Below are positions 1,013-41,584 of a stretch of DNA of 42,230 nucleotides, in pieces (within the stretch, counting starts at the first letter, position 1; every line of letters begins with the position of its first letter). This DNA is from Steroidobacter gossypii (GTDB lineage: Bacteria; Pseudomonadota; Gammaproteobacteria; Steroidobacterales; Steroidobacteraceae), in the NCBI RefSeq assembly GCF_016801985.1, contig NZ_JAEVLS010000012.1, positions 1 to 42,230 of the forward strand. The letters run 5' to 3'. The notes beneath the pieces are model-generated. The model was not told where the DNA came from and did not search any database. It worked only from the letters and a program-made list of their open reading frames with translations. The position numbers and the translations under genes are program-made.

Positions 1013-1801
1013 CTATGCCGTCGCCCCGCCGTCAATCACAAGTTCCGAACCAGTTATATAGCTGGCGGCGGGCGAGCATAGAAAAACCGCGGCTCCGCCG
1101 ATTTCATCAGGTCGTGCCATTCGACGAAGTGCACTCAGCGCCTTCCAGGCATCTCGCTGCACTTCCATAGACGGGGCCAATCCACAGGCGACGTAACGGG
1201 CAAGGATCGCGTCCATCATGGGAGTATCGACGCCACCAGGATGAATACTGTTCACACGAATCGGATATCCCAACACCGCGAACTCTTTGGCCGCCGACTT
1301 ACTGAGGAGCGTAACAGCCCCTTTGCTCGCCGAATAGACCGCGTTGAACGGCACACCACGTAATCCTGCTGTTGAAGACACGTTGACGACGGAAGCTCCC
1401 CCGACGCGCTGCGCGCCTCGGTCCTTGAGTATAGGCAGCGACGCCTGCAAGCCAAGCAGAACGCTTTCAACATTTACGCTGAGAACCCGCCGGCACTGCT
1501 CGATCGATGTGTCTGCAATACGCTCCACTAAGGATATGCCGGCGTTGTTGATCAAGCAGTCTATACCACCGAAGCGGATAAGAATCTCACTAATAACTCG
1601 TTGCCAATCACCCGCAGAAGTCACGTCCTGGCTGAACCATGCGTCTGCTTGAAGACCCTGCGGAGGATTGCCGATGTCAGTTGCAATCACCTGCGCACCC
1701 GCCTTGGAGAGAGATGCACAGATGGCGTGTCCAATCCCACCGCCGGCACCCGTTACCAATGCTACGGAGCCACTGAGAGACTCAGGTCTGTCACATACCA
1801 T
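1013..1801 (-). CDS. SDR family NAD(P)-dependent oxidoreductase
   Basis: A 262-aa classical short-chain dehydrogenase/reductase, expected to act in the cytoplasm on a hydroxyl or keto group of an unknown substrate. Visible family marks are the Rossmann glycine motif TGAGGGIG (about residue 17), the NNAG motif, the catalytic Ser in VNVSSTAG, YSASKG with the catalytic Tyr and Lys, and the usual C-terminal GSELVIDGG. The length is typical. The ATG at 1801 is preceded by GGAG at 6-nt spacing. It is the last gene of the minus-strand operon, 114 nt downstream of the M24 peptidase, so it probably oxidises or reduces an intermediate of the same pathway. The closest families are 3-oxoacyl-ACP-reductase-like or hydroxysteroid/glucose dehydrogenases; substrate cannot be read from sequence. 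Confidence 0.88.
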   Translation of the reverse strand: MVCDRPESLSGSVALVTGAGGGIGHAICASLSKAGAQVIATDIGNPPQGLQADAWFSQDVTSAGDWQRVISEILIRFGGIDCLINNAGISLVERIADTSIEQCRRVLSVNVESVLLGLQASLPILKDRGAQRVGGASVVNVSSTAGLRGVPFNAVYSASKGAVTLLSKSAAKEFAVLGYPIRVNSIHPGGVDTPMMDAILARYVACGLAPSMEVQRDAWKALSALRRMARPDEIGGAAVFLCSPAASYITGSELVIDGGATA

Positions 1802-1915
1802 TGCGCGCTCCGTTAACGTATGCGCCTATCTTGCATACTTTGTTTGACGCCATCTGCGTGCTCCGCCGCGGGAAAAATGAAGGCACCGTAGTAATCGGAG
1901 CAGATCTATAGCCCC

Positions 1916-13429: not shown

Positions 13430-14150
13430 GCTTGCACATTAGGGTCGGAATCGTTGAGGATCTCCCGGCCGTTCAAGAAGCTCTGGCGCACGTAGCGAAT
13501 GGAACGCTCCACTTACCCCTTGGTCCTTGCTCGATAGGGGCGGCACGCACGAACGCAACAGCCCAGTGCGCGGCGGAGCGTAGGAACCCAGGGTTCTCTC
13601 GGAGCTAGCCACCAACGGCTTGCTGATCATCGATGATGATGCAAGACATATGATCAAAGAGCATCCCGGCGGGAACGCCGGCAAACATCGTGAAGGCCTG
13701 CTTCAACCCATGCGTCTGCACTGACATCATCTGTCGCGGATAGAACTGCACCCAGAGCAACCTGGAATAGCCCAGAACCACGAGCGGCGCGAAGCCCTTG
13801 GCTCAAGGCAAACGGAATTCCGCGAAGTCCATCTGTGCCTGCAATCCCGGAGCAGTCTCCAATCGCACCACCGGGCCAATCGCAGGCGCCGGCCTGACGT
13901 GCCGCACGTAGTCCATCACCTGCGTATAGCCGCCGGTGTGGCCCGGGGCGCAACTCTGCGCGCGAATGCGCGTCGCTGTCAGCGTGGGGTACTCGGCCAA
14001 TCGCGCCCAGACGATAGGGCGAAAGGCATTGATCTTGCTTTGCACCTGCGGCCGCGGCGCATATCGCACCGCCTCATCGTCCAGATCTCCAGCAGATGCA
14101 GCAGTCGCCCAAGGGTAGCCTAGCCTTCGTTGGCCGAGGAGGTTTTTCCC
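13430..14150 (-). pseudogene. istA: IS21-family IstA transposase relic
   Basis: The minus strand carries pieces of IstA in several frames. GGYTQVMDYVRHVRPAP followed by LQAQMDFAEFRLP (about 13,980-13,806) is the conserved run into the DDE catalytic core, with the first catalytic Asp in QMDFAEF. Later pieces (SGLFQVALGAVLSATDD region, then KDQGVSGAFHSLRAPELLERP near 13,520-13,440, equivalent to KG-VERSIRYVRQSF) are displaced by frameshifts. The reading frame is broken at least three times, so this is a dead element. It forms one IS21 relic with the istB remains at 12.8-13.15 kb. Confidence 0.65.
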
Positions 14151-14422
14151 ACTCAGTGATGCTACCGACTGTAGAGCTCTGGCGTGTTGATAACCAGTCG
14201 AGCACATTCCCCGTACACGCAACTGCTGCACCCGCCAGCCCTCGCCTCTGGAGGACATGCGTAACGTCGCCTGAAGCCATTCGTACCGCCCCCATGAGAA
14301 TTCGGAACCGGCAAAGGGGGTCGAAGTACGCAGTGTGTCGATCACCACCAGGGAAGCCGCTTACGGCATGCAGGGCTCACATCTCACACGAACCGTTGTG
14401 GTTCGAACAGTCTCCGTACTTC

Positions 14423-16660
14423 ATGAAACTTCAACGCTGCAGCATCGGTGTAATCGTGACGATCGGCGCTTTCTGCGACGCCGGATGCCTAGCCTCTCCC
14501 GCAAGCACTCGGGTAAGCTGCGAGCGGATCGACATTGCTAAACTCAGCATCGACAAAGGGCATCGCTGGCGGCCTCCTTTTGGCTTAGACCGAGTTGGCA
14601 GCCCGCCAGTTGCGCACGTTGAGCTACACCTGCAGCATCCTCCCACGGCGGAGTACTACCTGACCGCCTACAACAACGGCGATGAGATCGAGCGAGAAAA
14701 GGTACATCTCAGGCTCAACGCAGGTGACTATGGAGGCTTGGGCAACGTTCCAATCAGCAATAAGAGAACGGCTCGATTTTCTCACGTGATACTTCCGCAA
14801 AGGACCACAGAAGCCGCATTGGAAAGGGGCTGCGACGGGAAGCTTGAAGTTCTTGATCGGAAAACCGTGACGAAAGAGGATATCGAAGCGGACGCTGTCG
14901 CTCAATCTCCGCAACCGTTAAACCCCGTGGATTTCGGCGCTATATTCCCACCGCACAACGTTCTATTCATAGTAGAAGGCCAGGACGCGACAGTCCGCGT
15001 AGCGGCGCTATCTCGCTCGCTTGATCTGCCTCGAGCTCGTCTACAAGTGTGGGTCGAAGGCGCCAAGCCTATCGAACAAACGATGTCCCTTCTGAAGGAT
15101 AAACGAGTTGATCGAACTGTTACGGTTCCCGTTTCAAGCGCAGTCACGAACAACGCCCTTCGTATACGCATACTCAACGAAGAAAAGATTGTTTGGTCAA
15201 AGGACATATCAGTGATGACTGTCCGCCACTGGATGCGACGTCCGTTGTTTGGCGTGGTTCAAACGAAGCTTCATTACGGATCTGCAATACCCGTATTTGA
15301 TTCAAATACGGGCAGCTCACGAGCAGCCCTACCCTATGAGACTGCATGGAACGCAGATCTGAAAGATCTGATCGTCTTTCTGCCCAATGGTTCTCGCTTT
15401 GTCTTCTGGCGAGGCGCCAACTACATTCCGTTCTGGGCCGGACAGTACAACACTGGCACGCTCTATCAATGGGCGGAAGACTGTAGCCGCGGAATGATCT
15501 CTCATCCAGACGGCAGCAAAGACTGCCCAGAGCCACTCTTTGATACCGAGCTTCGATACAGTCGCGCACGAATCATCGAAGCGAGTGCTGCTCGCATCCA
15601 TGTGCGGTGGGAGTACGAGCTCACTGATGTTCGCTACGAAGTTCGCGGCGGACTAGCGACCGAAGACTTCTATTTTTATCCCGATGGGTTCGGCACTCGT
15701 GTTGTAACGGTGACGGCATCGGCCGACTCCAAACCGCAGCTCTCCGAGTTCATCATCATCACACCTGCGTCCGCTTACCCGCTCGAGGTACTACCTAAGA
15801 AAATCCTCAAAGCGCTGTATCTCAACTCCGGGCAAAAGGACAACATCTCTTTTCCCTATGATGACGAGGCATCTTCTGTCGACAACGAAACTCAAAGCAG
15901 CAAATTCACAAGGCTGATACTCCGAGACCATGAGCCCACACTATTCCGAATCTTCTCCCACAAAGATGATCCCTCATCTGCTATTTACCTCTATCCAGAC
16001 GTCGGCGCTGACTTCCGGCCCCTTATGCCTTATGCATACCCCCCCATGTATGATGGCGCTGAGATTGTCACACCTGCATATTGGGGAAATCACTGGCCGC
16101 TAACACGCGGGAAATGGACTGGCTGGACGATCAATGATGAGATTGACGCAAGCCCAACACACAGCGCCATTGCCGGCTGGATTCCCTTCGACCCCCAAAA
16201 AGAAGAGAAGAGATGGGAAGTTGCTCCTCTAGTCGAAGGAAAATGGGCGATGGCGAACTGCACTTCATCGCCGCAACCTTGTGTCCTATCCCGATTCGCC
16301 TGGATGATCGGTCACACCGATTTGCCAGACCAAGAGCTGATTAGAATGGGCAGAAGCTTCACTAGGCCACCTGCCATCGACGTATTCGGAGGTCGCGTAG
16401 CTGTTCCGTCATACAGCATCGAGCGCCGCGCGCTACGTATCGTGGCTGAGCAACCGAGACTGACAATCAGGCTTCGACCTACCGTGCCGCTCATTAATCC
16501 CGTCTTCGAAATCGAGGAAGCACCTACGGGGCCCCTTGAATTTGTTTTCGTAAACGAGGTTCAGCTCTCACCAACAGAGTACGCATGGGACGGCAAGACC
16601 CTCTGGCTGAATAGAAATATAGAGCCTCCGCACCTGGATATAACCCTATCATTCAAATAA
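14423..16660 (+). CDS. Large exported protein of unknown function
   Basis: A 745-aa protein I do not recognise. From the ATG at 14,423 the first 27 residues (KLQRCSIGVIVTIGAF core) look like a Sec signal peptide; DAGC is not a convincing lipobox. The frame is open further up to 14,096, but that part overlaps the istA relic on the other strand and lacks exported-protein features. The body is rich in beta-strand-forming and aromatic residues, including FVFWRGANYIPFWAGQYN (about residues 330-347) and WTGWTINDEID, suggesting a beta-sandwich or carbohydrate-active fold. There are few Cys. No Shine-Dalgarno is obvious. It ends tail-to-tail with the GT4-like gene (20 nt between stops) beside the glycan locus, so a role on a surface or extracellular polysaccharide is possible but unproven. 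Confidence 0.7.
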   Translation: MKLQRCSIGVIVTIGAFCDAGCLASPASTRVSCERIDIAKLSIDKGHRWRPPFGLDRVGSPPVAHVELHLQHPPTAEYYLTAYNNGDEIEREKVHLRLNAGDYGGLGNVPISNKRTARFSHVILPQRTTEAALERGCDGKLEVLDRKTVTKEDIEADAVAQSPQPLNPVDFGAIFPPHNVLFIVEGQDATVRVAALSRSLDLPRARLQVWVEGAKPIEQTMSLLKDKRVDRTVTVPVSSAVTNNALRIRILNEEKIVWSKDISVMTVRHWMRRPLFGVVQTKLHYGSAIPVFDSNTGSSRAALPYETAWNADLKDLIVFLPNGSRFVFWRGANYIPFWAGQYNTGTLYQWAEDCSRGMISHPDGSKDCPEPLFDTELRYSRARIIEASAARIHVRWEYELTDVRYEVRGGLATEDFYFYPDGFGTRVVTVTASADSKPQLSEFIIITPASAYPLEVLPKKILKALYLNSGQKDNISFPYDDEASSVDNETQSSKFTRLILRDHEPTLFRIFSHKDDPSSAIYLYPDVGADFRPLMPYAYPPMYDGAEIVTPAYWGNHWPLTRGKWTGWTINDEIDASPTHSAIAGWIPFDPQKEEKRWEVAPLVEGKWAMANCTSSPQPCVLSRFAWMIGHTDLPDQELIRMGRSFTRPPAIDVFGGRVAVPSYSIERRALRIVAEQPRLTIRLRPTVPLINPVFEIEEAPTGPLEFVFVNEVQLSPTEYAWDGKTLWLNRNIEPPHLDITLSFK
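15290..15312. repeat. 23-nt near-perfect palindrome inside a coding region
   Basis: CCCGTATTTGA (15290-15300), a single T, then TCAAATACGGG (15302-15312) form an 11-bp perfect inverted repeat. A second hairpin, CAGATCT-GAA-AGATCTG, follows at 15354-15370. Both lie inside the exported-protein gene, coding for the region around PVFDSNTGSS and NADLKDLIV. Confidence 0.7.
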
Positions 16661-26105: not shown

Positions 26106-28139
26106 TCAAGGCACGGAAGCTTGTGCAGTTTCCCGAGCCGTCTGCCGTATATACATATAGATCGACCATACTTCCTTCTCACTCAGGTCATCAAACGTCG
26201 GCATGCCTCTGGCCGTGAAGGCGCCCTCCTTAACGACGGCTCGAAATGCGCCCCATTGCATCGCCAATAGTGATTCACGTAAGTCGGGTGCCATCGATGC
26301 GAAATTCTCAAGATCTTTACCATGACACTCCTTGCACCTCCAGTACGCTCTGCGTCCTTCGGCGGCGGCCTCTGCATCGATGACAATCTTTGGATCATCA
26401 ACCGCCCTGACCGTGAACCGGGGTGGCAACGTGGGTGGCAGCGGCGTCTTTTTTCCTAGCGCAAAGGTAAGAACGCGCCTCGGTTGTTCGTTGAATCGCC
26501 AGCCATAGTCAAACACCTTGCTCGCATTCGCGCCGCCGCCGTAGCCCACTAGCAGAGAAATATACTGAACACCGTCGCTGAGATAAGTGGATGGCGCGGC
26601 GTTGATCCCAAGTCCTGCGTCGAAGGTCCAAAGCCGCTCGCCGGTTGTCGCATCGTAGGCGAAAAATTTCCCACGGCCGGTGCCCTGAAACACCAGATCT
26701 CCGCCTGTGGCAAGTACGCCACCGTTCCATGAGCAATCGATGTATCGCACTTCCCAGTGACTTTTCTGCGCGATCGGATCCCAAGCCAGCAGCGTGCCCA
26801 CACCATCACCAGATTCTATCGGGCGTACATCGATGCTCTTAGCGCCAATCATCATGCCCAGCTGAATAGTGGGTATGTACACCAGGCCCGTTCTCGGGCT
26901 GAACGACATCCTTTGCCAGCTGTGTGCACCGACGACGCTCGGCCAGATGGGCACTGGCTCACTACCGTATCGAGCGGCGCGAGTCTCAATCGGGCGGCCG
27001 CTCTTCAGATCGATTCTCTGCGCCCAGTTTGCTTTGCTGAATTTTTCTGCCGAAATGAGCTTACCTGTCAATCGATCGATCACATAGAAGAAGCCATTCT
27101 TTGAAGCCAGCATCAGCACTTTTCTTTGCTGACCGCCTATATCGAGCTCCGCGAGAACCGTCTGTTGAGTTGCATCATAGTCCCACGACTCACCCGGATT
27201 AACCTGGTAATGCCAACGGTACTCGCCGGTGTGGAGATCAAGCGCAATGATGGAGGCGACGAAAAGATTATCGCCACCGCCCGCACCGCGCCGGGAAGCA
27301 TTGATCGGAGTTCCGTTCGCGGTTCCGATATAGACGAGCTTCAACTCAGGGTCGTATGCGATGTTGTCCCATACCGTGGCGTTACCACCGTCCTTCCACC
27401 ATTCTCCCCTCCAAGTCTTTGCCGCCATCTCCATGGCGGCATTCTCAAAGCCCTTCGCGGGGTTACCAGGAACTGTATAGAACCGCCACAATCGAGCGCC
27501 GCGTACCGCGTCGTATGCTGTGACGTAGCCTCTAGTACCCCCTTCGCCTCCATGGCCGATGATTACTTTGCCGCCGGCCACACGTGGCGCACCGGAGATT
27601 TGCTTACTTGCGTCAGCTTCGTCAAACGTCTGGATGCTCCAGACCGGATGGCCAGTCTTTGCGTTGAGCGCCAGGAGGCGTCCGTCCACAGTGCCGACAT
27701 AGATGTTGCCTCCCCAATATGCCACTCCGCGATGAGAGCCAAAGAGGATCCCCTTTCGGTCAGGAGTATGAGTGGCAAGTTCCGGATCGAATCTCCACAG
27801 CTGTTTACCAGATCGGACATCAACTGCGTACGTTGTACCGTTCGTACCCGAGAAGTAGAGGACGCCACCGATCGCCAGCGGGGTGGCGTGCAGCGAGCGC
27901 TCACCGGGAAGATCCAGATGCCACGCGAGCCCGAGCTGCGCAACGTTGCCGCGGTTGATCGACGAGAGCGGGCTGTAGTGTTGCTCGGCAAAGGTTCTCC
28001 CTGGCTCGGGCCAGTCCTGGATCCCTACCTCACCAGCTGACGGTCGATCATCAACCGCACCACCGACGTCCGGCAGTACACAAAGACTTAGTGTAGCGGA
28101 CCAGGCAATTGCAACCGAGGCACCTGCGACAGATTTCAT
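26106..28139 (-). CDS. Quinohemoprotein (PQQ- and heme-dependent) alcohol dehydrogenase
   Basis: A 677-aa periplasmic type-II quinohemoprotein. A signal peptide (about residues 1-25) precedes an eight-bladed PQQ propeller with tryptophan-docking repeats (GKQLWRFDPE, GHPVWSIQT, GARLWRFYT, GERLWTFDA). A C-terminal cytochrome c domain (about residues 585-677) carries the heme motif CKECH starting at Cys602. Catalytic Asp320 lies in GESWDYDATQQ; the second Asp322, two residues on, is the lanthanide-ligand position of XoxF and PedH. Metal ligands Glu (ENAAMEMAAKTW) and Asn (GTANGTPIN) are in place. The vicinal Cys-Cys pair of most family members is absent (GILFGSHRGVAYW). It would oxidise an alcohol and pass electrons through its heme. 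ATG at 28,139 is preferred; a GTG lies three codons earlier. Confidence 0.9.
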   Translation of the reverse strand: MKSVAGASVAIAWSATLSLCVLPDVGGAVDDRPSAGEVGIQDWPEPGRTFAEQHYSPLSSINRGNVAQLGLAWHLDLPGERSLHATPLAIGGVLYFSGTNGTTYAVDVRSGKQLWRFDPELATHTPDRKGILFGSHRGVAYWGGNIYVGTVDGRLLALNAKTGHPVWSIQTFDEADASKQISGAPRVAGGKVIIGHGGEGGTRGYVTAYDAVRGARLWRFYTVPGNPAKGFENAAMEMAAKTWRGEWWKDGGNATVWDNIAYDPELKLVYIGTANGTPINASRRGAGGGDNLFVASIIALDLHTGEYRWHYQVNPGESWDYDATQQTVLAELDIGGQQRKVLMLASKNGFFYVIDRLTGKLISAEKFSKANWAQRIDLKSGRPIETRAARYGSEPVPIWPSVVGAHSWQRMSFSPRTGLVYIPTIQLGMMIGAKSIDVRPIESGDGVGTLLAWDPIAQKSHWEVRYIDCSWNGGVLATGGDLVFQGTGRGKFFAYDATTGERLWTFDAGLGINAAPSTYLSDGVQYISLLVGYGGGANASKVFDYGWRFNEQPRRVLTFALGKKTPLPPTLPPRFTVRAVDDPKIVIDAEAAAEGRRAYWRCKECHGKDLENFASMAPDLRESLLAMQWGAFRAVVKEGAFTARGMPTFDDLSEKEVWSIYMYIRQTARETAQASVP

Positions 28140-28368
28140 ACGAAACACATCCGCCGATATTCGCTGATTCCTCTGCTGGTCATACCGATTCTGCTTCTGG
28201 CCGGGGGCATTCAGGTACGTACCACTCTCTTTCTCTCTGAAGTTGACTGGGCATGGGCACCGGCATGCCGCCGATGTACTACCTGCCCGGAGTAGCTACC
28301 TGGGTCATCGCACGCAGTTCGGCCGTCGGCGCCTATCTACGGTGCCAGGATGGCATTCCATGCCTGTT

Positions 28369-29951: not shown

Positions 29952-31055
29952 TCATCGCACAATCTTGCTCGTCGGGCTACGCTCCCTACCTAAACAACGG
30001 CGGCGATCACGCTCGAGCGTATATGAGGGATTGCTCAACGTGGGTTGCGCAATTGCCAGTCTTGCCTCCGGGACTTGGACGTGCGCTGGTATCGACGCGA
30101 GCACGGCTTCACTGCGATCACGGATCGCCCCTTCGTACTCCGGATGCGAGAGTATGTATAGATAATTGTTTCTGATTCCTTCAAGCACAATGCGCCCGGC
30201 CTCGAAAGGATCCATCAAGGCTCCGGTGTCCCGAAGTTTCCGACCCGAAGCTTCATGCTCGGCCAACTTACTGGTATCGGTGCTGTGGCTGAGGCCTCCC
30301 AACTCAGTGGGTCGGTTCCGTTGGGAATTCCAGCCGCGCGAGAATACGGCTCCTGGACAATAAACCGATACACCAATATTCAACGGCAGAAGCTCGCCCC
30401 GAAGCACTTCCATCATCATGATCACGGCCGCTTTAGATGCACAGTAGATTGCGGCGTTCTCCACCGCAAATAGGCCCCACGCAGACGCGGTAGTCACAAT
30501 CTGGGAGCCCTCGCCATGCGCCCGAAGATGTGGCAGAAATACTTCCAGGCAGTTGAATACGCCGCCCACATTAACGTTCATCATCCAGTCCCAATCTTTG
30601 CGAGTAGCCTCGCTAAAAGGTCCTAGAGCATAGACGCCGGCGTTATTCACAAGAACGTGGATTTTGCCGAATACCTTGATCGCTTCAGCCGCGGCTGCTT
30701 GGATTCCGTCTCGATTAGTCACATCGAGCTCTACAGCGTGAACGCGCTCGCGGGCGTTTTCGAGGTATTTCATTGCCTCACTGAGATGCTCCCGAGTCCG
30801 ATAGGAAATGACAATCTTCATTCCCGCGTCGGATAACGCGCGAGCAATGCCGAGACCAATTCCGCTAGATCCGCCGGTTATGAATGCGACCTTCCCTTGG
30901 ACATCCTTTATTGGGATCGGCACTTGGGGACAGGAGACCCTCTCCCGTCCCCTTGCTGAACTGACTGAAAGCGCGGACGTACTAACGAGCGCACCAGCAG
31001 TGACTCGCAGAAAGGCCCGTCGCGCAGGTTTGGAGCAAGGTGGTCTGTTTTTCAT
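29952..31055 (-). CDS. Tat-exported SDR family oxidoreductase (paralog 1)
   Basis: A 367-aa protein with an N-terminal twin-arginine signal (PARRAFLRVTAGALVST, residues 11-27) followed by a classical SDR domain. The cofactor motif is TGGSSGIGLG, then LVNNAGVYALG, TTASAWG with the active-site Ser, and YCASKAAV with Tyr and Lys. The C-terminal 90 residues, including RNRPTELGG and LYILSHPEYEGAIRDRSEA, exceed the usual SDR length of about 250 aa and are shared with the second copy near 41 kb. Tat export would place an NAD(P)-binding enzyme in the periplasm, presumably folded with its cofactor, as known for glucose-fructose oxidoreductase. It lies between the TIM-barrel gene and IS3 relics. ATG at 31,055, with GGAAA close upstream. 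Confidence 0.85.
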   Translation of the reverse strand: MKNRPPCSKPARRAFLRVTAGALVSTSALSVSSARGRERVSCPQVPIPIKDVQGKVAFITGGSSGIGLGIARALSDAGMKIVISYRTREHLSEAMKYLENARERVHAVELDVTNRDGIQAAAAEAIKVFGKIHVLVNNAGVYALGPFSEATRKDWDWMMNVNVGGVFNCLEVFLPHLRAHGEGSQIVTTASAWGLFAVENAAIYCASKAAVIMMMEVLRGELLPLNIGVSVYCPGAVFSRGWNSQRNRPTELGGLSHSTDTSKLAEHEASGRKLRDTGALMDPFEAGRIVLEGIRNNYLYILSHPEYEGAIRDRSEAVLASIPAHVQVPEARLAIAQPTLSNPSYTLERDRRRCLGRERSPTSKIVR

Positions 31056-32335: not shown

Positions 32336-32733
32336 GCATGCGCTGCATACGGCAAAGCTGCGCGAGGGATGACTGTCTCAGCAGAGGGTTCACTCCAAGA
32401 TCTATGCAGCTTTGGCCCGGCGTTGGCACGTTTGCGCACGTGCTGGCCCTAGTTAGACTGCTAAACGATCAACATCGCCTGCCGCGATCACTCGATCGCT
32501 GCTGCAACCCAACTTTTTGCGATGCTCATATTTCTCACACGGAAAATATACAACGGCAGATACTTCTGCTGCCTGCCATGGGACGCGTGCCGAGTGGATC
32601 GAATTCCGCTCGTTATCTATCGGTTTGCGCTCCCCCGCTCCCGCCCCGTCACCTCGGAGCTTGTGCGCGTCGATGCAGACGTGATTACTTAGGTGACGAA
32701 GCCCAGACGTGTCCAGCAGCTAAGAATGCTTCT

Positions 32734-34869
32734 ATGCTTTTCCGCGCAACCACTCTTCGTGCCACTCTCTTCACACTAGTTATCTTCGCCGTGAGACTCA
32801 ACGGCGCCACATTGTCGGAGGAGGAGGACCACCAAGGGCACCCGACGAAAGATTGGCCTACCGTTGGTGGTGACTTGAGCAACACTCGCCACTCTGCGCT
32901 TGCGAAGGTAGACAAGAACAATGTGCGACAGCTGGGAGGCGCGTGGGTCTCCGAACGGTTCGACGATGGTAGCGTGTCGCTCGTTACGCCCGTCGCTAAA
33001 GATGGAGTGCTGTTCGTCACGGCCGGACGGAAGGTCTATGCGCTGAACGCGATCACGGGCGTGAGGATTTGGACGTTCAGCACGGCTCCAGATATTCGAC
33101 CAGAGCGCGTGGACGAGACTTCAGAAGCGCTCAAGAACTCGACGATCACGGAGATTTCCGTCCCGAATCGACGCGGCATAGCCATCGGCCAAGGTCTTGT
33201 GTTTGTGGGACTTCACGATGGGCGCGTTATCGCACTCAATAAGGATACAGGTGAATTAGTCTGGAGTCAGCAGACAGGGGTTGACCAGCCGAAGAAAGAA
33301 CAAGTCGTTTCCGGCGCACCAATATACAGCCGAGGTCTAGTGTTCGTCGGACTGTCGAACGGAGATGCACGCCTGAGAGGACGAGTGACCGCGATGGACG
33401 CGGCAACCGGCAAAATTGCTTGGCAACTGTTTACGGTCCCAGCACCGGGAGAAACCGGTCACGAGACGTGGCCGTCGTTCAATGATGCCTGGAAGTTCGG
33501 GGGCGGCGGCGTATGGACGAACGCGGCCGTGGACGAAGATCTGGGAATGGTTTACTTCGCTACTGGCAATGCCGTACCTCCGTTTGCAGGAGACTGGCGG
33601 CCCGGCTCGAATCTTTATACGTGCTCGGTCCTGGCATTGGAGATCAAAACAGGCAAGCTGAGGTGGTACTACCAACTCGTGCGCCATGACGTGTTCGACG
33701 CAGACGTGGGAACCCCGGTGATCCTTCACGATGCGCAGATCGAGGGGCAATTGCGCAAGGCAGTGGCCATCTTGCGGGCCGATGGGCACTTGTTCCAGCT
33801 TGATCGAGTTACCGGCCATCCATTGAGGGCCGTGGAGGAGCGAGCGGTCCCGCAGCTTGCGTCCCAAAAGACGGTGCCCACACAGCCGTTTCCTGTCGGC
33901 GCTGAAAGCATTCTGATGGATTGTGACGACTGGAAGAAAGAAGGCGTGCCTGCTGGATTCGTACTCGGCTGTATGTGGACCTCCGCGGCCGCTCCTCCAC
34001 CATCGAAGGATCCGCAGAACGTGCTCGCACCATTTCCATCCGCTCGCGTGAGCCCGATGGCGTACAGTCCTGAAACGCGATATTTCTATGCGCAGGCTAC
34101 CTCGTTCCTCACCTGGCCGCGAAGATCACCAGATCCCTACTACTTCGACTTCGATCGCAGCGCCCCAGGCCTTAGAGAGCACGGAGAGCTTGCGGCGATC
34201 GACAGCCGCACCGGCAGAATCGCATGGAAGCGACGAGTCTATGCACCCAAGGGCGCATTCCCGTTCTTGAGAGGAGGGTTGCTTACAACATCAGGCGGAT
34301 TATTGTTTCGTAGCGCCCCCGACGGAACGATCGAGGCCAGCGATGCCCAGAGCGGACGAATACTGTGGACGTTTCAGACAGGGATGGCTGGTGCATACGG
34401 CTCTCCGGTGACTTATGAGGCCGATGGTGAGCAATATGTTGCGGTGCCGATGGGTCCTTCAGTATGGGCATTCAAACTCGGGGGCGAGCTTCAGACTACT
34501 AATACAGCCGCTGCACTCCCCAAGCAGGAAGAGGCGTTTTTCGGCCCCGTCATAGACACTGCCGATGTCGAAACCACATCATTGAAGCGCTCATCCTTTG
34601 GATCTGGAACGCGCTACTTCGTAGATGAATTCGCATTCCATCCTTATCGCTCTCGCGTGGAGAAAGGAGCTAAGGTGCGATTCGTGAACAACGGCAAGAT
34701 GGAGCACGAGATTGTTGCGCTCGATGGCTCTTGGAGCACTGGTCGCTTAAGACCAACCCAAGAGTCCTGGATCAGTTTTCGATCCCCAGGGGAGCACACC
34801 TATATATGTAAGGACCATCCCTGGAGCTACGGACAGGTCATAGTGACGGAGGAACAAGTCGATCAATGA
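32734..34869 (+). CDS. Quinoprotein-like beta-propeller fused to a cupredoxin domain
   Basis: A 711-aa exported protein. The signal peptide starts at the ATG at 32,734 (LFRATTLRATLFTLVIFAV); the frame is open further upstream but not protein-like. Residues about 45-600 form a PQQ-dehydrogenase-type propeller (KDWPTVGGDLSNTRHS, GVRIWTFST, GELVWSQQTG, GKIAWQLFT, GRILWTFQTG) with the acidic pair Asp322 and Asp324 in VFDADVG at the catalytic position. No vicinal Cys-Cys. A C-terminal type-1 copper domain follows (about 620-711) with ligands His658, Cys692 and His695 (ICKDHPWSYG); the axial Met position is Ser. Expected role: periplasmic oxidation of an alcohol or sugar with electron transfer to copper. 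It faces, stop to stop, its heme-bearing paralog 37 nt away. Confidence 0.85.
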   Translation: MLFRATTLRATLFTLVIFAVRLNGATLSEEEDHQGHPTKDWPTVGGDLSNTRHSALAKVDKNNVRQLGGAWVSERFDDGSVSLVTPVAKDGVLFVTAGRKVYALNAITGVRIWTFSTAPDIRPERVDETSEALKNSTITEISVPNRRGIAIGQGLVFVGLHDGRVIALNKDTGELVWSQQTGVDQPKKEQVVSGAPIYSRGLVFVGLSNGDARLRGRVTAMDAATGKIAWQLFTVPAPGETGHETWPSFNDAWKFGGGGVWTNAAVDEDLGMVYFATGNAVPPFAGDWRPGSNLYTCSVLALEIKTGKLRWYYQLVRHDVFDADVGTPVILHDAQIEGQLRKAVAILRADGHLFQLDRVTGHPLRAVEERAVPQLASQKTVPTQPFPVGAESILMDCDDWKKEGVPAGFVLGCMWTSAAAPPPSKDPQNVLAPFPSARVSPMAYSPETRYFYAQATSFLTWPRRSPDPYYFDFDRSAPGLREHGELAAIDSRTGRIAWKRRVYAPKGAFPFLRGGLLTTSGGLLFRSAPDGTIEASDAQSGRILWTFQTGMAGAYGSPVTYEADGEQYVAVPMGPSVWAFKLGGELQTTNTAAALPKQEEAFFGPVIDTADVETTSLKRSSFGSGTRYFVDEFAFHPYRSRVEKGAKVRFVNNGKMEHEIVALDGSWSTGRLRPTQESWISFRSPGEHTYICKDHPWSYGQVIVTEEQVDQ

Positions 34870-34906: not shown

Positions 34907-37468
34907 TCAGTTCCGCGTTGTACTCGCTTTCATCTTGATACTGCGTAGGTGTTGCGCGTCATCCTTGAGCTCCCCTTGCAGCGAGATACCGTTAGTGCGC
35001 AGCAGGTAAGCAGCAATGTCCAGGTAAGTCTCTCGGCTTAGGCTTCCCGGGTTCGCAAGCGGCATGGTCGATCGGATGTTATCGAACAGATCTGCCACGC
35101 TCACGTTCGTCCAACGCAGCATGAAGGCTTCTCCCAACAGAGCTGGCGCTGCACCCCGCCCGGCTAGGTCCTCGCCGTGGCACACGCTACAGTTGCGCTC
35201 AAAGTGTTCTCTGCCTCGCCGAGCTCGATCCGAAAAGTCGCGGGAAGCCGATTCAGTATCACTCTCCATGGGCTTTTCATGGCTGCGGGATATCAGATCA
35301 TCTGAGCGGACGATGAGTTGCCCATAACTCCAAGGGTGTTCTTTGCATACATACAGATGCTCGCCTGGATTTCCGAATGTCAACCAAGCTTCCTCTCCGG
35401 GACTCAGCCGGCCTGTACTCCATGAGTTGTCCAAAGCCACGATCTCGTGGTGGAGAATCCCATTGTTGACGAAGAGAAGCTTGCTTCCAACCTTCACCCG
35501 TGCGCGAACTGGATTGAACGTGAACTCGTCAATGAAATAGCGCGTGCCCCGCGCGGTCTCCGAGCGATGTGCTGAGCTTGTTTCGATCTCCGCGGTGTCG
35601 ACCAACGGTCCAGGCAGTGCTTCCTCCGACCGCGAGACCACGGGCTTCGGTCTTTCGATCGGCTTGCCGCCGCGTTTGAAGGCCCACACCGCGGTGCCCA
35701 GAGTTGCTGCCAGATATTGCTCTCCGTCAAGCTCGTATGTGACGACTGGCCCGCCACTGGAGCCGGCCTGAAAATCCCACAGAATCTGTCCGCTCCCTGC
35801 ATCAGAGGCTTCAAGCCGTCCGTCACCTGAGCTGCGGAATACGAGTTCACCTGCGGTCGTCAAAGGTTCGACGGTCGTAGCACCGACTGGCACTCGCCTG
35901 CGCCAAACAATCTTTCCTGTGCGGCTGTCGAGCGCGGCAAATTCGCCATAGGTCTGCAGACCTGGAATAGCTCCGACCTCCTTCCGGAAATAGGGATCCT
36001 GCGACCTACGGGGCCAATGTAATATTGAAGTCCCGTACGCATAGAAGTACCCCGTTTGGGGGCTATATGCCATTGCAGATCCGGTAGCCATGGCCGCTGG
36101 CGCGAGAACATTCTGAGGATCGGTCGACGGAGGCGGTGAAGCCGGCGGTGTAAACATACATCCCAGCACGAAGCCGGCAGGTACGGGCTCCTTCTGCCAG
36201 TCTTCGCAGCTTTTCAGTATGCTCTCCCCAACCATGGGGAACGGTTGGGTCTTGGCCGTGCTCTGCGAGGGAAGCTGCGGAACAGCACGCTCCTCAATAG
36301 GTGCGAGCGGCTTTCCCGTTACGCGATCTAGTTGAAACACGTGGCCATCGCCCCTCATAACTGCAAGCGCCTTGCGCGCGCTGCCATCGACTTGGGCGTC
36401 GTACAGCAATATCGGTGCTCCCGAGGCCGCACCGAACACATCATGACGGACAAATTGGTAGTACCACTTTAGCTTCCCTGTCTTCACCTCCACCGCCAGG
36501 ACGGAGCCGGAATAGAGATTGTCACCAGGCCGCAAATCCCCCCCGTATGCCGGTGCGGGGTCTCCAGCCGTGAAGTAGACAAGTCCCAACTCCGGATCTA
36601 CCGCTGGGCTCGCCGATATACCGCCGCCACCGAATCGCCAGCCGTCATTGAAGGACGGCCAAGTCTCGTGTCCAGGCTCCCCCGGCCCGGGAATCGAAAA
36701 CCTCTGCCACAGTTGTCTCCCAGTCATGGCATCGAGTGCAGTCAGCTTTCCACGCCGGTTCTCCGCATCATCAGCTAATCCTGTAAAGAGGATGCCACTA
36801 CTGTACGTAAGTGAGCCTGCGGTCCAATGCCCTTTGTTCGACTCGTGGGTTCCTGGATGTCGAGTCCACACCAACTTCCCAGTCTTCTCTCTCAACGCAA
36901 CGACAGTCCCACCTACGAGTCCGACGAATACTAACCCCTGGCCGATGCGGACTCCTCCGTTATTCGGAACTCCCTTTGAGAGATTCACGAGCCCAAGATT
37001 CCCTGATCGAAAGAGGCCTGTTGAATCCTTTCCCGCCGGGCTTTTGTAGCTCCAAACGCGTTCTCCGAATTTCGCATCGAGGGCATGGACATACTGTCCC
37101 GCCGTGACAAAGAGCAGTCCGTCGTTCACCACCACCGGTGATTGTGACGTCGCTCCGTCACCGAAGTTCTCGGAGACCCAAGCCAGACCGAGCTCGGACA
37201 CATTGCTTTTATTGATGCGTGCGAGACCTGAAAAGCGCATGTTGCTTTGATCGCCGTTGAGCATCGGCCAGTCTGCTGAAGGCGAGCGAGCATAGTCACG
37301 GCCAGGAGCCGCCGAGGGCAACTCAGCACAGACGCCGTGTGCGCTTACGATGGCGATCGCATTGAAGACGAGCCATCTCACCCAGAGTCGCACATTTGGA
37401 GGCTCCTGAATGCGTGAGGGGGAGGCGCTTCCATTGTTTGTGTCCGCTTGCACAGAGTTTGGATCCAT
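34907..37468 (-). CDS. Quinoprotein-like propeller / cupredoxin / cytochrome c triple fusion
   Basis: An 853-aa exported protein, paralogous over its first 730 residues to the plus-strand neighbour. Order: signal segment (LWVRWLVFNAIAIVSAHGVCA), PQQ-type propeller (DWPMLNGDQSNMRFSG onward), cupredoxin domain with His674, Cys708 and His711 (VCKEHPWSYG), then a cytochrome c domain with CSVCH at 760-764 and a likely axial Met802 (STMPLANPG). The catalytic Asp position reads VFGAASG, so Asp is replaced by Gly346, and the +2 Asp by Ala348. The propeller may therefore be inactive or use another chemistry, while the copper and heme centres look intact. ATG at 37,468 has GGCGAG upstream; a GTG at 37,393 with GGAG at 9-nt spacing would give a tighter signal peptide. 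Confidence 0.85.
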   Translation of the reverse strand: MDPNSVQADTNNGSASPSRIQEPPNVRLWVRWLVFNAIAIVSAHGVCAELPSAAPGRDYARSPSADWPMLNGDQSNMRFSGLARINKSNVSELGLAWVSENFGDGATSQSPVVVNDGLLFVTAGQYVHALDAKFGERVWSYKSPAGKDSTGLFRSGNLGLVNLSKGVPNNGGVRIGQGLVFVGLVGGTVVALREKTGKLVWTRHPGTHESNKGHWTAGSLTYSSGILFTGLADDAENRRGKLTALDAMTGRQLWQRFSIPGPGEPGHETWPSFNDGWRFGGGGISASPAVDPELGLVYFTAGDPAPAYGGDLRPGDNLYSGSVLAVEVKTGKLKWYYQFVRHDVFGAASGAPILLYDAQVDGSARKALAVMRGDGHVFQLDRVTGKPLAPIEERAVPQLPSQSTAKTQPFPMVGESILKSCEDWQKEPVPAGFVLGCMFTPPASPPPSTDPQNVLAPAAMATGSAMAYSPQTGYFYAYGTSILHWPRRSQDPYFRKEVGAIPGLQTYGEFAALDSRTGKIVWRRRVPVGATTVEPLTTAGELVFRSSGDGRLEASDAGSGQILWDFQAGSSGGPVVTYELDGEQYLAATLGTAVWAFKRGGKPIERPKPVVSRSEEALPGPLVDTAEIETSSAHRSETARGTRYFIDEFTFNPVRARVKVGSKLLFVNNGILHHEIVALDNSWSTGRLSPGEEAWLTFGNPGEHLYVCKEHPWSYGQLIVRSDDLISRSHEKPMESDTESASRDFSDRARRGREHFERNCSVCHGEDLAGRGAAPALLGEAFMLRWTNVSVADLFDNIRSTMPLANPGSLSRETYLDIAAYLLRTNGISLQGELKDDAQHLRSIKMKASTTRN

Positions 37469-38470
37469 TATGTGCTCGCCGATCACGCGTTCCGGGTGAT
37501 GTTTCGGATGTTTGCCAACGCCAGCACCTGTAAAGCTCGATCACGCCACCCGGATCGCAGTCGAAGACTCAAGCTTGGATCGGCGGTTTCCGTTCATCAA
37601 GCATCTCCCTCGGTAAGGGTCGCCGTCGGGGCTTGAATCGAAGAGTTGCGGCAGTTTCGAACCCAGGTGTCGATCTGCGCACAATTGCCCTCGTTTGTTC
37701 CCAGATATCCTGTAGCATTTGGCTCGAGCCAGAAGCGTAAGCCGCCGGGAACGCAGGCAAGCCACAGACTTGGTAGCGTGCTGCCTCACGGATATGTTAT
37801 CGGCGGGCTGTCGCTTGTTGCCGGCGACCGCTTGGTAGCGACGCGAGTTATATCGGCGGGCGCACCGCTCATTACGCTCCCGCTAACAATCTCTTGACTC
37901 GCGGATGACGTGTTGACACGCGAACACCCGAGTTGGACGTAAAGTGAGCCAACCGCTCCCATGGGTAACATTCCGTCTGAGGCAACGCGGCACCATCTCA
38001 ACGCCGCTGCCTTGGAAGTTCCAGCAGTGTAGCAAGTGACATCCGAGCAAGCGGAAGGCCCCCAGTGACGATCGGCAGCGAGCGTACTTTCCGCAAGAGA
38101 AAGCACAGGTGGTCTCACCCTGAATTATTCCTAGAACCAGTGGACCGTCGCGGCTCGCCGTCCGTCGCTCCATCTCGTCTCGTGTTCCCGCCAATGTGCT
38201 GAACTACCTCTCTACATACATCGACACCTGGAGTGATCATCGCGGAGTGAGCACACAGTATTGCGAGATTCCCCCGGCGAAGGTATAGGGCTCGCTACCA
38301 ATAGCAAGCCGCTAATCGTTTGAGCGGCGGATACGGCGACAGTTTCAGCGGCAGTCGCCGCTCAGAGACGGGCCATTTCAGAGGGTGGGCGCGGCCATCC
38401 TTTGAGTAACGCGGGGGGGGGGGTGCCCCTATGTTGTTGTCAAGGGATTTCCTGCCCGTGGCGGGCTATG
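37469..38470. other. 1-kb region without a supported gene
   Basis: This region lies upstream of the triple-fusion gene. No frame has a recognisable motif. It holds an inverted repeat TCGCG-N15-CGCGA (37899-37923) and a run of 11 G (38413-38423). The last 50 bp before the IS3 element read, on the minus strand, GCCCGCCACGGGC and CCCTTGACAACAACATAGGG, which resembles the non-coding right end of IS110-group elements. The rest appears to be decayed or regulatory DNA. Confidence 0.4.
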
Positions 38471-38483: not shown

Positions 38484-38541
38484 GAAAATTAGATGAGGTC
38501 AGAAGTGGAATTTTCTCGTAACCTTGACCGAGGAGATTCCC

Positions 38542-38808
38542 TTGAAGAAATCACGATTTACCGACAGTCAGATCATTGCGATCTTGAAGCAAGCCGAGGC
38601 CGGCACTCCGGTACCGGAGCTGTGCCGCGAGCACGGCATCAGCTCGGCCACGTTCTACAAGTGGCGATCCAAATATGGCGGCATGGAGGCTTCCATGGTG
38701 TCGCGCATGAAGGAGCTCGAGGAGGAGAATCGGCGGCTGAAGAAAATGTATGCCGAGGCCCAGATGAGTGCCGATATCCTGAAGGAGGCGCTCTCAAAAA
38801 AATGGTGA
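38542..38808 (+). CDS. IS3-family transposase OrfA
   Basis: An 88-aa DNA-binding subunit. The helix-turn-helix is in [20 protein letters not shown] and [20 protein letters not shown], and a leucine-zipper-like coiled coil follows ([20 protein letters not shown]). The start is a TTG at 38,542 with GAGGAG 6 nt upstream. It ends in KKW immediately before orfB, which is in the -1 frame. The A7 run at 38796-38802 is the probable slip site producing an OrfAB transposase. Confidence 0.92.
38796..38802 (+). promoter_or_regulatory. A7 slippery site for programmed -1 frameshift
   Basis: Seven consecutive A at the orfA/orfB junction, preceded by GAAGGAGG (38781-38788), which can act as a stimulating Shine-Dalgarno-like element. 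OrfB lies in the -1 frame relative to OrfA. This is the normal arrangement for IS3 elements. Confidence 0.7.
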
Positions 38809-39629
38809 GGCCATCTCAGCGTCGAGAGGTGGCCCGATGGGCGGTAATCGTTAAAGGCCAAAGCATCCGACGGGCCTGCGTGGAACTCGATATCAGCGAG
38901 ACCTGCTACCGCTATGAGCCGAAGCTGTCGAGCGAGAACGATAGAATCGCCAAGTGGCTGATGCGCGTGACGGACAGCCAGCGCAACTGGGGCTTCGGGT
39001 TGTGTTTTCTGTACCTTCGCAACTTGAAAGGCTTCGGCTGGAATCACAAGCGCGTGTACCGCATTTACCGCGAGCTGGAGTTGAACCTGCGGATCAAGCC
39101 CAAGAAGCGGCTGCTGCGCGGGGCGCCGGTGCCGCTGACGATCCCGACAGTAAAGAATCAAGTCTGGTCGATGGACTTCATGCACGATGCTCTCGGCGAC
39201 GGCCGCAGCTTCCGGCTGTTCAATGTGCTGGACGACTTCAACCGCGAGGGCCTGGCGATCGAGGCGGATCTGTCGCTACCGTCGGCTCGCGTGATTCGCA
39301 CGTTAGAGCAAGTCATCGACTGGCGTGGCAAGCCGCGGGTGATTCGCTGTGACAACGGACCAGAGTATATCAGTGGCACGCTGTTGCAGTGGGCAGCGCA
39401 GAGGCAGATCCGGATCGAGTACACCCAGCCCGGCAAGCCTCAGCAGAACGCATACGTCGAGCGCTACAATCGCACCGTGCGCTATGACTGGCTTGCTCAG
39501 CATATCTTCGGATCGATCGCTGAGGTTCAAGAAGCTGCGACCCGATGGCTATGGACGTACAACAACGAACGTCCCAACATGGCACTGGGCGGGTTCACGC
39601 CGATACAGAAGCTGGCTATGGCTGCTTAG
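38802..39629 (+). CDS. IS3-family transposase OrfB (DDE integrase)
   Basis: A 275-aa catalytic part. After an HTH_21-like region ([21 protein letters not shown]) comes the rve integrase core with the three acidic residues: Asp in [11 protein letters not shown], Asp in [12 protein letters not shown] and Glu in [14 protein letters not shown]. The C-terminus [21 protein letters not shown] is standard. The ATG at 38,802 overlaps the orfA stop (ATGGTGA), but in this family the active product is usually the frameshifted OrfAB fusion. Nothing suggests inactivation. Confidence 0.93.
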
Positions 39630-39671
39630 TTCCTCCACTTTTGGCTGCAGCTAAAAATGGGAGGATTACCG

Positions 39672-40134
39672 TCTGAGTGATCTGTCCGGCCAGGTCGTCA
39701 TCGAAGCCGCACAGCATGGTGAGCTCGGCGACGTCGTTGTCCGGCAACTTCAGCGATCGCAACGTATGCGGCATGCTGCGTGCCGCTTCCGCGATGATGT
39801 ATGCGTCTCGCGCATCCGTCTTGGCCTCGCCCGCGTGCAGGTCGGCGATTCGGCGCATCGCAAGGCCCGGAAGGTAGGCGACTGTCGCACCTTCGGCTCG
39901 CGCCACCGCAACTGGCAGAGCGCCGATCGTGGCCGGCTGGTCGACAACGAGCAGCACGCGGCCATGTCCTTTGAGCTTGGTGATGAGTGCTCGAAGCTTG
40001 GCTTCATCGTTCGGCAAAGCACTGTCGAGCAGGCGCTTTCCAGTCTGATCCAGCGCCACGGCGTGATGTGCCCCTTTGCCAACGTCGACGCCGACGAAGA
40101 CCTGGATGCACTCCTGCGGTTCGATGCCCGTCAT
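39672..40134 (-). pseudogene. IS110-family transposase, truncated by the IS3 element
   Basis: The N-terminal 154 codons of an IS110 recombinase (DEDD, RuvC-like domain). Visible: the first acidic residue in VFVGVDVGKGAHHAVAL, VVDQPATIGALPVAVA, and the later pair in AKTDARDAYIIAEAAR. At 39,671 the frame runs into the IS3 inverted repeat and stops at 39,616, so the C-terminal Tnp domain with the catalytic Ser is missing (full proteins are about 400 aa). The start at 40,134 has AGGGGG 6-7 nt upstream. The copy is dead but its leader region appears intact. Confidence 0.85.
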
Positions 40135-40149
40135 TGGTACCCCCTTTGT

Positions 40150-40360
40150 AGTTATCTTTATGGGCGGCCAGCGACCTACAGCAGCCAGTCTCGGCATCCA
40201 CGTTACGAGCGACCTAGGATTTGGTCCTGGTCCAGCCCCTATCAGCGATCACCGGCTGCCGACCCGGCCCGGTGACAACCCCCCCCGGATCATGGACGAC
40301 TGGGGGCGGGAGTCATGCCGGGCCAAGCTGGCCGAATCTCAGCATAACTGAGATATGAAG
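40150..40360 (-). ncRNA. Candidate IS110 bridge-RNA (left-end) region
   Basis: The 200 nt upstream of the IS110 recombinase start is non-coding and hairpin-rich, as expected for the left end of IS110-group elements, where a bridge RNA is encoded. On plus coordinates: ATCTCAG-CATAA-CTGAGAT (40336-40354), CGGCCA-AGC-TGGCCG (40320-40334), a C-run at 40280-40287 pairing with GGGGG at 40303-40307, and TCACCGG-N13-CCGGTGA (40250-40276). Closer to the gene is the TGGACCAGGACC stretch. Family knowledge supports the position; the RNA itself is inferred from structure potential only. Confidence 0.45.
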
Positions 40361-40450: not shown

Positions 40451-41584
40451 TCACTTCGTTGATTTAGCGCGTTTCACGCGAGTGCAGCTGATGCGATCGC
40501 GCTCCTTTCTATAAACGGACTCTTGACGCCAGGAACGTAGTCTTTCTACTTGCGCGCTGCTCGCCTGTAAATCCTTTGGGAAGGCTGCAAGGAGCGCCTC
40601 GTTTCGGTCACGAACGATGGGCTCATACTCAGGATGCGTGAGGATATACAGATCATTGCTACGCATCCCGCGCAGTACAAGCTCGCCCGCTGTGAACGGG
40701 TCCATGAAAAGTTCCGACTGAAGTTTATCCTCCTTCGACGATAGTTCTTTGCCGAGACTCTGGGCTCGGGCCGCGTTTCTTCGGCCACCAGGTCGATTTC
40801 GATCGGAATCTGCGATCTGCGTTTTGACCGCTCCAGGGCAGTATGTCGAGACTCCGATATTTGACTCAGCTAACGTCGCTCGCAGGCCCTCCATCATGCC
40901 AACGACTGCGAATTTCGACGCCGTATAGCTTGGATTATGCCAGGGTTCGGCGACCAGCCCATCCATGGACGCAGTTGCGATGATCTGACCACCTTCGCGG
41001 TGCTTCTGAATGTACGGCAGAAATGCCTGCAAACCATTGAATACTCCGTTGAGGTTCACGTTGATCACCCAGTCCCAATCCTCGTAGCTTGTTTGGCTTA
41101 ATGGCACGTGATGCACTACCCCTGCATTGTTGACCAGAACGTGGATCTTTCCGAATACCCGCGCGACTTCAGCTGCAGCCTTCTCCATGCCCGGACGATC
41201 AGTCACATCGACGCTGATAGCGTGAACCTGGCTCGCCATATTGCCGAACAGTTCCATCGCTACCCTGATGTGCTCTCTCGTCCGATAGCCAATTGCCACT
41301 TTCATCCCCGCGGTTGCGAACGCGCGCGCAATTCCTAAGCCGATTCCGCTTGATCCGCCGGTGATGAAGGCCACTTTACCGGCCACTTCCCTCATCGGAG
41401 CCTTTTCCTTCGAACAATCGGCGGGTGCCGCAGCCCCTTCAGCCGCTCCGGCCTGACGAAGTGACTGAAGCATCCCAGCAACGGACGTTCCACTGGCCAC
41501 GAGCCCTACTTGCTTGAGGAAACTGCGACGCGCAGACAGTAGCGGAGTGTCTCGCCCGTTTCTCCCATCCTTAGCCTTGGCCAT
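40451..41584 (-). CDS. Tat-exported SDR family oxidoreductase (paralog 2)
   Basis: A 377-aa paralog of the Tat-SDR near 30-31 kb. The twin-arginine signal is SARRSFLKQVGLVASG (residues 18-33), almost the consensus S-R-R-x-F-L-K, and a linker of about 40 residues leads to the SDR core: TGGSSGIGLG, VLVNNAGVVHHV, ATASMDG with the active Ser, and YTASKFAVV with Tyr and Lys. The long C-terminal part has the same RNRPGG and LYILTHPEYEPIVRDRNEA features as paralog 1. Start ATG at 41,584 with GGGAG 5 nt upstream. It is probably periplasmic and cofactor-loaded before export. It sits downstream of the IS110 leader with no obvious partner gene on its own strand in the window. Confidence 0.88.
   Translation of the reverse strand: MAKAKDGRNGRDTPLLSARRSFLKQVGLVASGTSVAGMLQSLRQAGAAEGAAAPADCSKEKAPMREVAGKVAFITGGSSGIGLGIARAFATAGMKVAIGYRTREHIRVAMELFGNMASQVHAISVDVTDRPGMEKAAAEVARVFGKIHVLVNNAGVVHHVPLSQTSYEDWDWVINVNLNGVFNGLQAFLPYIQKHREGGQIIATASMDGLVAEPWHNPSYTASKFAVVGMMEGLRATLAESNIGVSTYCPGAVKTQIADSDRNRPGGRRNAARAQSLGKELSSKEDKLQSELFMDPFTAGELVLRGMRSNDLYILTHPEYEPIVRDRNEALLAAFPKDLQASSAQVERLRSWRQESVYRKERDRISCTRVKRAKSTK

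Follow-up and report, generated by a model that had tools for sequence, protein, structure and literature searches.

A rare propeller-cupredoxin-cytochrome c fusion protein of Steroidobacter gossypii with an apparently emptied cofactor site

In the type II quinohemoprotein alcohol dehydrogenases (1KB0, 1KV9, 1YIQ), a PQQ-binding beta-propeller is followed directly by a C-terminal heme c domain on a linker. To our knowledge, the lanthanide-dependent alcohol dehydrogenases PedH and XoxF (6ZCV, 6DAM), which have the same propeller fold, carry no fused copper or heme domain. Single chains in which heme c comes after a copper domain are the fusions of cytochrome oxidase subunit II (COX2) with cytochrome c and nitrite reductase 2ZOO; these chains have CuA or multicopper domains and no PQQ-type propeller. 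Passages of PMC8348568 describe the usual fusion as that of one heme on a flexible linker, and passages of PMC11845868 give the metal-ligand roles in XoxF, MxaF and PedH. A propeller of the PQQ family can also be active without PQQ, as in the tetrathionate hydrolases Af-Tth and Ad-TTH1; in Ad-TTH1 neither the cysteines of the PQQ site nor the calcium ligands are present, and the passages of PMC10859504 that describe these hydrolases give the heme c domain as missing and do not mention a copper domain.

The window, the whole 42,230-nucleotide stretch of DNA that was analysed, is one entire contig of a genome of 7.1 Mb in 32 contigs. It encodes a protein, here called A, in which a PQQ-type propeller, a cupredoxin and a cytochrome c domain follow one another in one chain (Table 1). 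Protein A is 859 amino acids long if translation starts at the GTG at 37486, or 853 if it starts at the ATG at 37468; the second start gives the residue numbers used by the original prediction and, unless stated otherwise, here. In a Pfam scan of the whole protein the propeller was assigned to PF01011 (240.8 bits; cutoff 26.7) and the heme domain to Cytochrome_CBB3, PF13442 (37.7 bits; cutoff 27), and no copper family was found at E ≤ 0.01. Scanned alone, the cupredoxin domain was assigned to Copper-bind, PF00127 (23.7 bits; cutoff 21.2), a family that the corresponding domains of all four members of the protein family described below (A, B, L009 and L010) matched at E ≤ 1. The motifs are HH at 673−674, CKEHPW at 708, which supplies Cys708 and His711, and CSVCH at 760−764. 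The three-domain order and the numbering of the original prediction were therefore right, with the motifs at their places and Pfam supporting the domains.

An AlphaFold model built with 43 alignment rows had a mean pLDDT of 70.4 and a pTM of 0.67. Its propeller was good, and two linkers (614−661 and 718−744 in GTG numbering) were largely below a pLDDT of 50. In a Foldseek search with this model the quinoproteins 1YIQ, 1KB0 and 6ZCW were among the first five matches with a probability of 1.00, and type II enzymes were among the best matches of A by sequence as well. A fold search with a poor model of the tail alone gave no match at E ≤ 0.001 and returned mostly cupins; 2ZOO was listed at a weak E value. 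Some 1 kb upstream of A there are transposase genes, and a promoter scan found one site where 2.5 were expected.

Table 1. Positions of protein A, its domains and key residues, and neighbouring genes in the window (residues in ATG numbering)
Feature	Position	Strand	Basis
Protein A (propeller + cupredoxin + cytochrome c fusion)	34907..37486	−	open frame
PQQ-type beta-propeller domain of A, residues about 67−601	35666..37270	−	PF01011, fold match
Ala235 of A, in place of Glu/Asp metal ligand (1KB0 Glu185)	36764..36766	−	alignments
Ser285 of A, in place of PQQ-stacking Trp (1KB0 Trp245)	36614..36616	−	alignments including PedH
Asp303 of A, in place of Asn metal ligand (1KB0 Asn263)	36560..36562	−	alignments
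Gly346 of A, in place of catalytic Asp (1KB0 Asp308, XoxF Asp299)	36431..36433	−	alignments
Ala348 of A, in place of lanthanide-type Asp (XoxF Asp301)	36425..36427	−	alignments
Cupredoxin domain of A, amicyanin/plastocyanin-like	35303..35566	−	profile and Pfam
Copper ligand His674 of A	35447..35449	−	motif, alignment
Copper ligand Cys708 of A	35345..35347	−	motif, alignment
Copper ligand His711 of A	35336..35338	−	motif, alignment
Ser714 of A, at axial-Met position	35327..35329	−	alignment, profile search
Cytochrome c domain of A	34973..35242	−	PF13442
Heme c motif CSVCH of A, residues 760−764	35177..35191	−	motif
Met802 of A, probable sixth heme ligand (TMP motif)	35063..35065	−	alignment
Protein B (propeller + cupredoxin, without heme domain)	32338..34869	+	paralogue of A
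Cupredoxin domain of B, same His/Cys/His and Ser	34588..34848	+	alignment
Quinohemoprotein alcohol dehydrogenase-like neighbour (propeller + cytochrome c)	26106..28148	−	metal ligands kept

The copper site proposed for A at His674, Cys708 and His711 and the heme site at CSVCH were borne out by proteins with the same order and ligands in two other genomes, and because of these fusion relatives we rejected a chance origin of the motifs. The His, Cys and His ligands stand in type-1 order in A and are invariant in all four members. Members of the amicyanin/plastocyanin group (PF00127) have the same His and Cys-x2-His; the nearest PDB profile matches to the domain of A were amicyanins and the cupredoxin at the C-terminus of 9CCK, a multicopper oxidase from Nitrosopumilus. 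The family differs from this group at the aligned place that we take to be that of the axial Met in amicyanin: it has Ser in 4/4 members, within an invariant HPWSYGQ, and Met stands there in 14 of the 15 other cupredoxins printed. The cupredoxin of L112, which was misaligned, was left out of a later alignment. In two of the matched amicyanin entries the same place reads Ala (2IDQ) or Gln (2IDT). An axial Met is not required in every blue copper protein, and copper binding at the site of A without it is plausible from the sequence. As expected of a cytochrome c, A has both CxxCH and a Met ligand; CxxCH is kept in all three heme-bearing members, with Val or Ala at its third place, and the Met of the TMP motif is invariant in the same three.

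Full-protein searches found the three-domain form in 3 of the 14 genomes of the genus, namely that of A (G000), G106 and G096. The fusion protein of G106 has the same 883-amino-acid frame and score as L038 of Peristeroidobacter agariperforans KA5-B. When the copper-heme tail was searched in the order, 177 of 396 genomes gave some match; among the matches listed, both domains without stop codons occurred only in the same three genomes, and the other rows were heme-only, cupredoxin-only or riddled with stops. In the phylum, 87 of 398 genomes matched and the only match to the whole tail was the window's own copy. Five phylum matches that overlapped part of both the copper and heme ranges were scanned; they were three COX2-cytochrome c proteins, one cbb3 subunit of the FixP type and one cytochrome P460 with a cupredoxin, and none of the five had a PQQ propeller. 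Further matches of this kind outside the five (e.g., in G1082, G911 and G1050) had open frames of 387−529 amino acids. Among the matches listed for the 396 order and 398 phylum genomes, the three-domain form was absent outside the three genomes of the genus.

A cupredoxin profile matched 20 of 369 genomes of the class, the genome of A included. The longest frame among 14 of the other 19 matches that were printed was 567 amino acids, and no PQQ propeller was found in the three that were scanned with Pfam (one NHL/SMP-30-like, one multicopper oxidase and one short). A scan of contigs for six exact peptides, a method that reaches close relatives only, yielded 117 relatives, from which 80 loci were kept; one of these, L038, has the fusion. 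Six plasmid records matched the tail, none over 80% of its length. The original prediction would have been weakened by characterised proteins of identical architecture; PDB searches and the literature found yielded none, and no paper describing a propeller-cupredoxin-heme architecture was found in a literature search whose scope left most subscription journals aside. We conclude that the architecture of A is real and rare, a new combination of known parts.

The propeller of A differs from those of the enzymes at the site where PQQ and its metal are held. In the HMMER alignment with PedH (6ZCV), the Glu, Trp, Asn, Asp and Asp of the enzyme are Ala, Ser, Asp, Gly and Ala in A. In the alignment with 1KB0, whose site numbers were counted along the chain, Glu185, Asn263 and Asp308 are replaced by Ala, Asp and Gly, and Trp245 lies opposite a one-residue gap. 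Protein A thus has neither the Glu/Asp, Asn and Asp metal ligands of PQQ-dependent alcohol dehydrogenases nor any of the four metal-ligand positions of PedH and XoxF. In an alignment of 25 sequences the Glu/Asp, Trp, Asn and Asp were kept in 21/21 outgroups and none was kept in A, whereas B, L009 and L010 kept Asp, Trp, Asn, Asp or Glu, and a second Asp. This second residue is the extra Asp of the lanthanide enzymes; the first Asp of that pair is replaced by Glu in L009 and L010. The site of B reads Asp, Trp, Asn, Asp, Asp, Arg.

The six positions of the cofactor site were scored in sequences chosen by their likeness to A. Of 140 ORF matches, 134 passed the length and score limits, 133 were distinct and 127, A included, could be scored. 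All six positions were kept in 101 rows, five in 17, four in 7 and three in one; A was the sole row with none, and the stacking Trp was present in 126 of the 127 rows, the exception being A. The loss is concentrated at the site: elsewhere A keeps 87 of 94 conserved propeller columns (those with a single residue across its three relatives and across 18 or more of the 21 outgroups, with Asp/Glu and Lys/Arg grouped) compared with 0/6 at the site (Fisher p = 1.4e-6). With exact letters the counts were 79/86 and 0/4 (Fisher p = 1.3e-4). Because A, B, L009 and L010 align without gaps near the metal-site residues, a frameshift at the site of A is excluded. Equivalents of the vicinal Cys pair, Lys/Arg335, Asn394 and Trp395 are absent in all four proteins; the missing Cys pair is indecisive because several otherwise intact relatives also lack it.

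The NCBIfam model TIGR03075 has a cutoff of 480.05 bits; A scored 267.3 and B 303.5. As compared with the type II enzymes, in A a cupredoxin stands between the propeller and the heme domain and the PQQ/metal-site residues are lost. The top NCBIfam match of both A and B was Acido-empty-quinoprotein group A (TIGR04528), a name that implies quinoprotein relatives without PQQ; membership was rejected, the scores being 273.9 bits for A and 313.2 for B with a cutoff of 650. From the alignments, an emptied PQQ/metal site in A is well supported, and we infer that A binds no PQQ.

The genes for A and B are convergent, tail to tail, with 37 bases between them; the true start of B is probably further in, at a guess near 32734. 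Another neighbour, the quinohemoprotein-like product of 26106−28148, exceeded the TIGR03075 cutoff (506.9 bits). A homologue 58.6% identical to it adjoins the fusion gene in G106 (locus L172), where it is the next long gene and is divergent from the fusion gene. The copper domain of A is 64−65% identical, and its heme domain 58−59% identical, to those of the two other fusion proteins. In each of the two other fusion genomes a single member of the family of four was found, and the A/B pair was seen in one genome. In the tree L009 was the partner of A (96/86) and L010 that of B (94/86), and A and B as sisters from a recent duplication were rejected (AU p = 0.002). A topology that grouped the three heme-bearing proteins together was not rejected by the AU test (p = 0.23), and placing A outside gave a borderline result (p = 0.057); B may have lost the heme or may have split off before the heme was gained. 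The C-terminal part of L025 looks cupredoxin-like without the second His. Its profile match is weak (probability 34.6%), so the sequences only hint that a propeller with a cupredoxin came first. Of eight genomes searched, five had pqqE over the cutoff, including all three fusion genomes, so PQQ can probably be made in the genome of A.

With the residues for the quinone and its metal gone from the propeller, A is more likely to be a relay than an enzyme with three cofactors. The reading we prefer, at about even chances, is that A would relay electrons through copper and heme without PQQ, its propeller being vestigial, and would receive them from B or from the nearby quinohemoprotein. It would be an exported electron-transfer protein whose propeller, descended from a quinoprotein dehydrogenase, would now serve as a scaffold or docking surface. 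Electrons would pass from the donor to the copper at 674/708/711, then to the heme at 760−764 and on to a periplasmic acceptor; we infer the donor, the route and the order. Its probable ancestor is a complete protein with propeller, cupredoxin and heme, of the kind still found in the two related genomes; of the paralogues in its own genome, A would be the one that retained the carriers but not the catalytic site. The pointers to a partnership of A with B are adjacency and shared ancestry, the genes being convergent and in no operon. Because equivalents of the vicinal Cys, Lys/Arg335, Asn394 and Trp395 are absent in all four proteins, it may be that PQQ is not bound by B either, and A could receive its electrons from another protein.

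The original prediction offered two roles. In the one, A would bind PQQ, and electrons would run intramolecularly from it through copper to heme. Its domain order, its copper and heme motifs and the pqqE of its genome would suit such a wire, as would the Asp, Trp, Asn, Glu and Asp kept at the site by L009 and L010; however, A itself has other residues in place of the metal ligands and the stacking Trp, with 0/6 positions kept, and we regard an intramolecular wire in A as very improbable. In the two relatives, L009/L038 and L010, the metal site is mostly retained, and a full quinone-copper-heme wire is possible there. The other role, a multi-centre relay for the propeller-cupredoxin neighbour, fits the evidence better than the wire and would involve two centres instead of three. 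The propeller of A could instead have acquired a new, cofactor-free role, as a binding or hydrolytic site to or from which copper and heme carry electrons. Passages of PMC10859504 show that PQQ-family propellers without PQQ can be enzymes, and the conservation of the rest of the propeller (87/94 columns) would agree with this, but no candidate new active site was identified in A; since only one sequence has the empty site, a new site would not be recognisable by conservation. We consider such a role doubtful, though worth keeping in mind. A role as a redox or copper sensor, or as a structural protein in outer-membrane assembly like BamB, appears extremely unlikely. BamB structures were the next matches after the quinoproteins in the fold search, but with 12−15% identity among the matches listed, and the NCBIfam BamB score was 63.7 with a cutoff of 285.2. 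We know of no BamB with a copper or heme domain.

Protein A might also be a redundant paralogue in early decay, without a function that matters, whose catalytic site was lost first. It has the longest branch of the four (0.53 changes per column compared with 0.29−0.31), of the 292 columns in which the other three agree it keeps 235, the figure for each other member being 235 of 263−268, and the transposase genes lie nearby. Nevertheless, the frame has stayed open over 859 codons despite this divergence, with codon-position GC like that of B, the copper and heme ligands are kept and the losses are concentrated at one site. Decay is in our judgment unlikely, and a pseudogene reading is not favoured; an open frame on a long branch, the kept copper and heme ligands and the identities of the copper and heme domains argue for a maintained function. 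A further possibility, to which we give only a modest chance, is that A and B are the halves of a former single-chain propeller-copper-heme dehydrogenase that became a pair through complementary losses; the substrate would be oxidised in B, and electrons would pass copper to copper into A and leave through its heme. A three-domain protein of the presumed ancestral type is present in Peristeroidobacter agariperforans and in another genome of the genus. The losses in the two proteins are reversed, A keeping copper and heme without the cofactor site and B keeping metal ligands and Trp without heme. If this pairing is true, the copper sites of A and B, free of an axial Met, would be tuned to high potential.

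If the preferred relay reading is right, these proteins would represent a quinoprotein-dehydrogenase family with copper and heme carriers fused in one chain, and A would be a natural case of an enzyme turned relay, one paralogue having given up its active site; the existence of relatives in which most of the metal site is retained makes this case testable. It would also caution that a match to a PQQ-type propeller need not mean PQQ. A natural cupredoxin with an axial Ser, fused to possible redox partners, may be useful for the design of direct electron transfer.

Three propeller proteins from the genomes compared, L025 (G115), G106:C11:304937 and G096:C1:599097, had open frames of 718–745 amino acids and could be aligned with the propeller-cupredoxin-cytochrome c fusion up to its residue 713 or further; the match in G106:C11:304937 contained one TAG. 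In L025, the one of the three that was read, the metal-site residues were retained, and the C-terminal part was cupredoxin-like, with a weak profile match and without the second copper histidine. A further propeller with an unusual cofactor site was found in the organism's own genome (L007, contig C3, 859–3069); its six conserved cofactor-site positions were Gln, Trp, Gln, Asn, Lys and Trp, three of which were kept.

Cupredoxins also occurred in combinations without a PQQ propeller. L155 (G643), a single short protein of 303 amino acids, had a cupredoxin followed by a CANCH motif, and the copper domain was its sole Pfam assignment. L153 (G448; 530 amino acids) combined NHL/SMP-30-like repeats with a cupredoxin (CVPHPWM) at the C-terminal end, where a hydrophobic helix was also present. 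In L187 (G1005, 1021–2301, minus strand), one frame, which extended beyond the stretch examined, contained a cytochrome P460 domain and then a cupredoxin (CGLHPTM).

Within the window, an 854-amino-acid open reading frame matched no family in Pfam at E<=0.01 and none in NCBIfam at E<=0.001. Transposase genes lay approximately 1 kb upstream of the fusion gene, the Integrase-core one being IS3-type. The fusion and its paralogue were bracketed by two short-chain dehydrogenase genes; export is uncommon among such proteins.

Positions of neighboring features in the window
Feature	Position	Strand	Leader
854-amino-acid open reading frame	14096-16660	+	
Short-chain dehydrogenase (adh_short)	29952-31055	-	ARRAFLRV, twin-arginine-like
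Integrase-core transposase and IS110-type transposase fragment	38493-40197		
Short-chain dehydrogenase (adh_short)	40451-41584	-	ARRSFLKQ, twin-arginine-like
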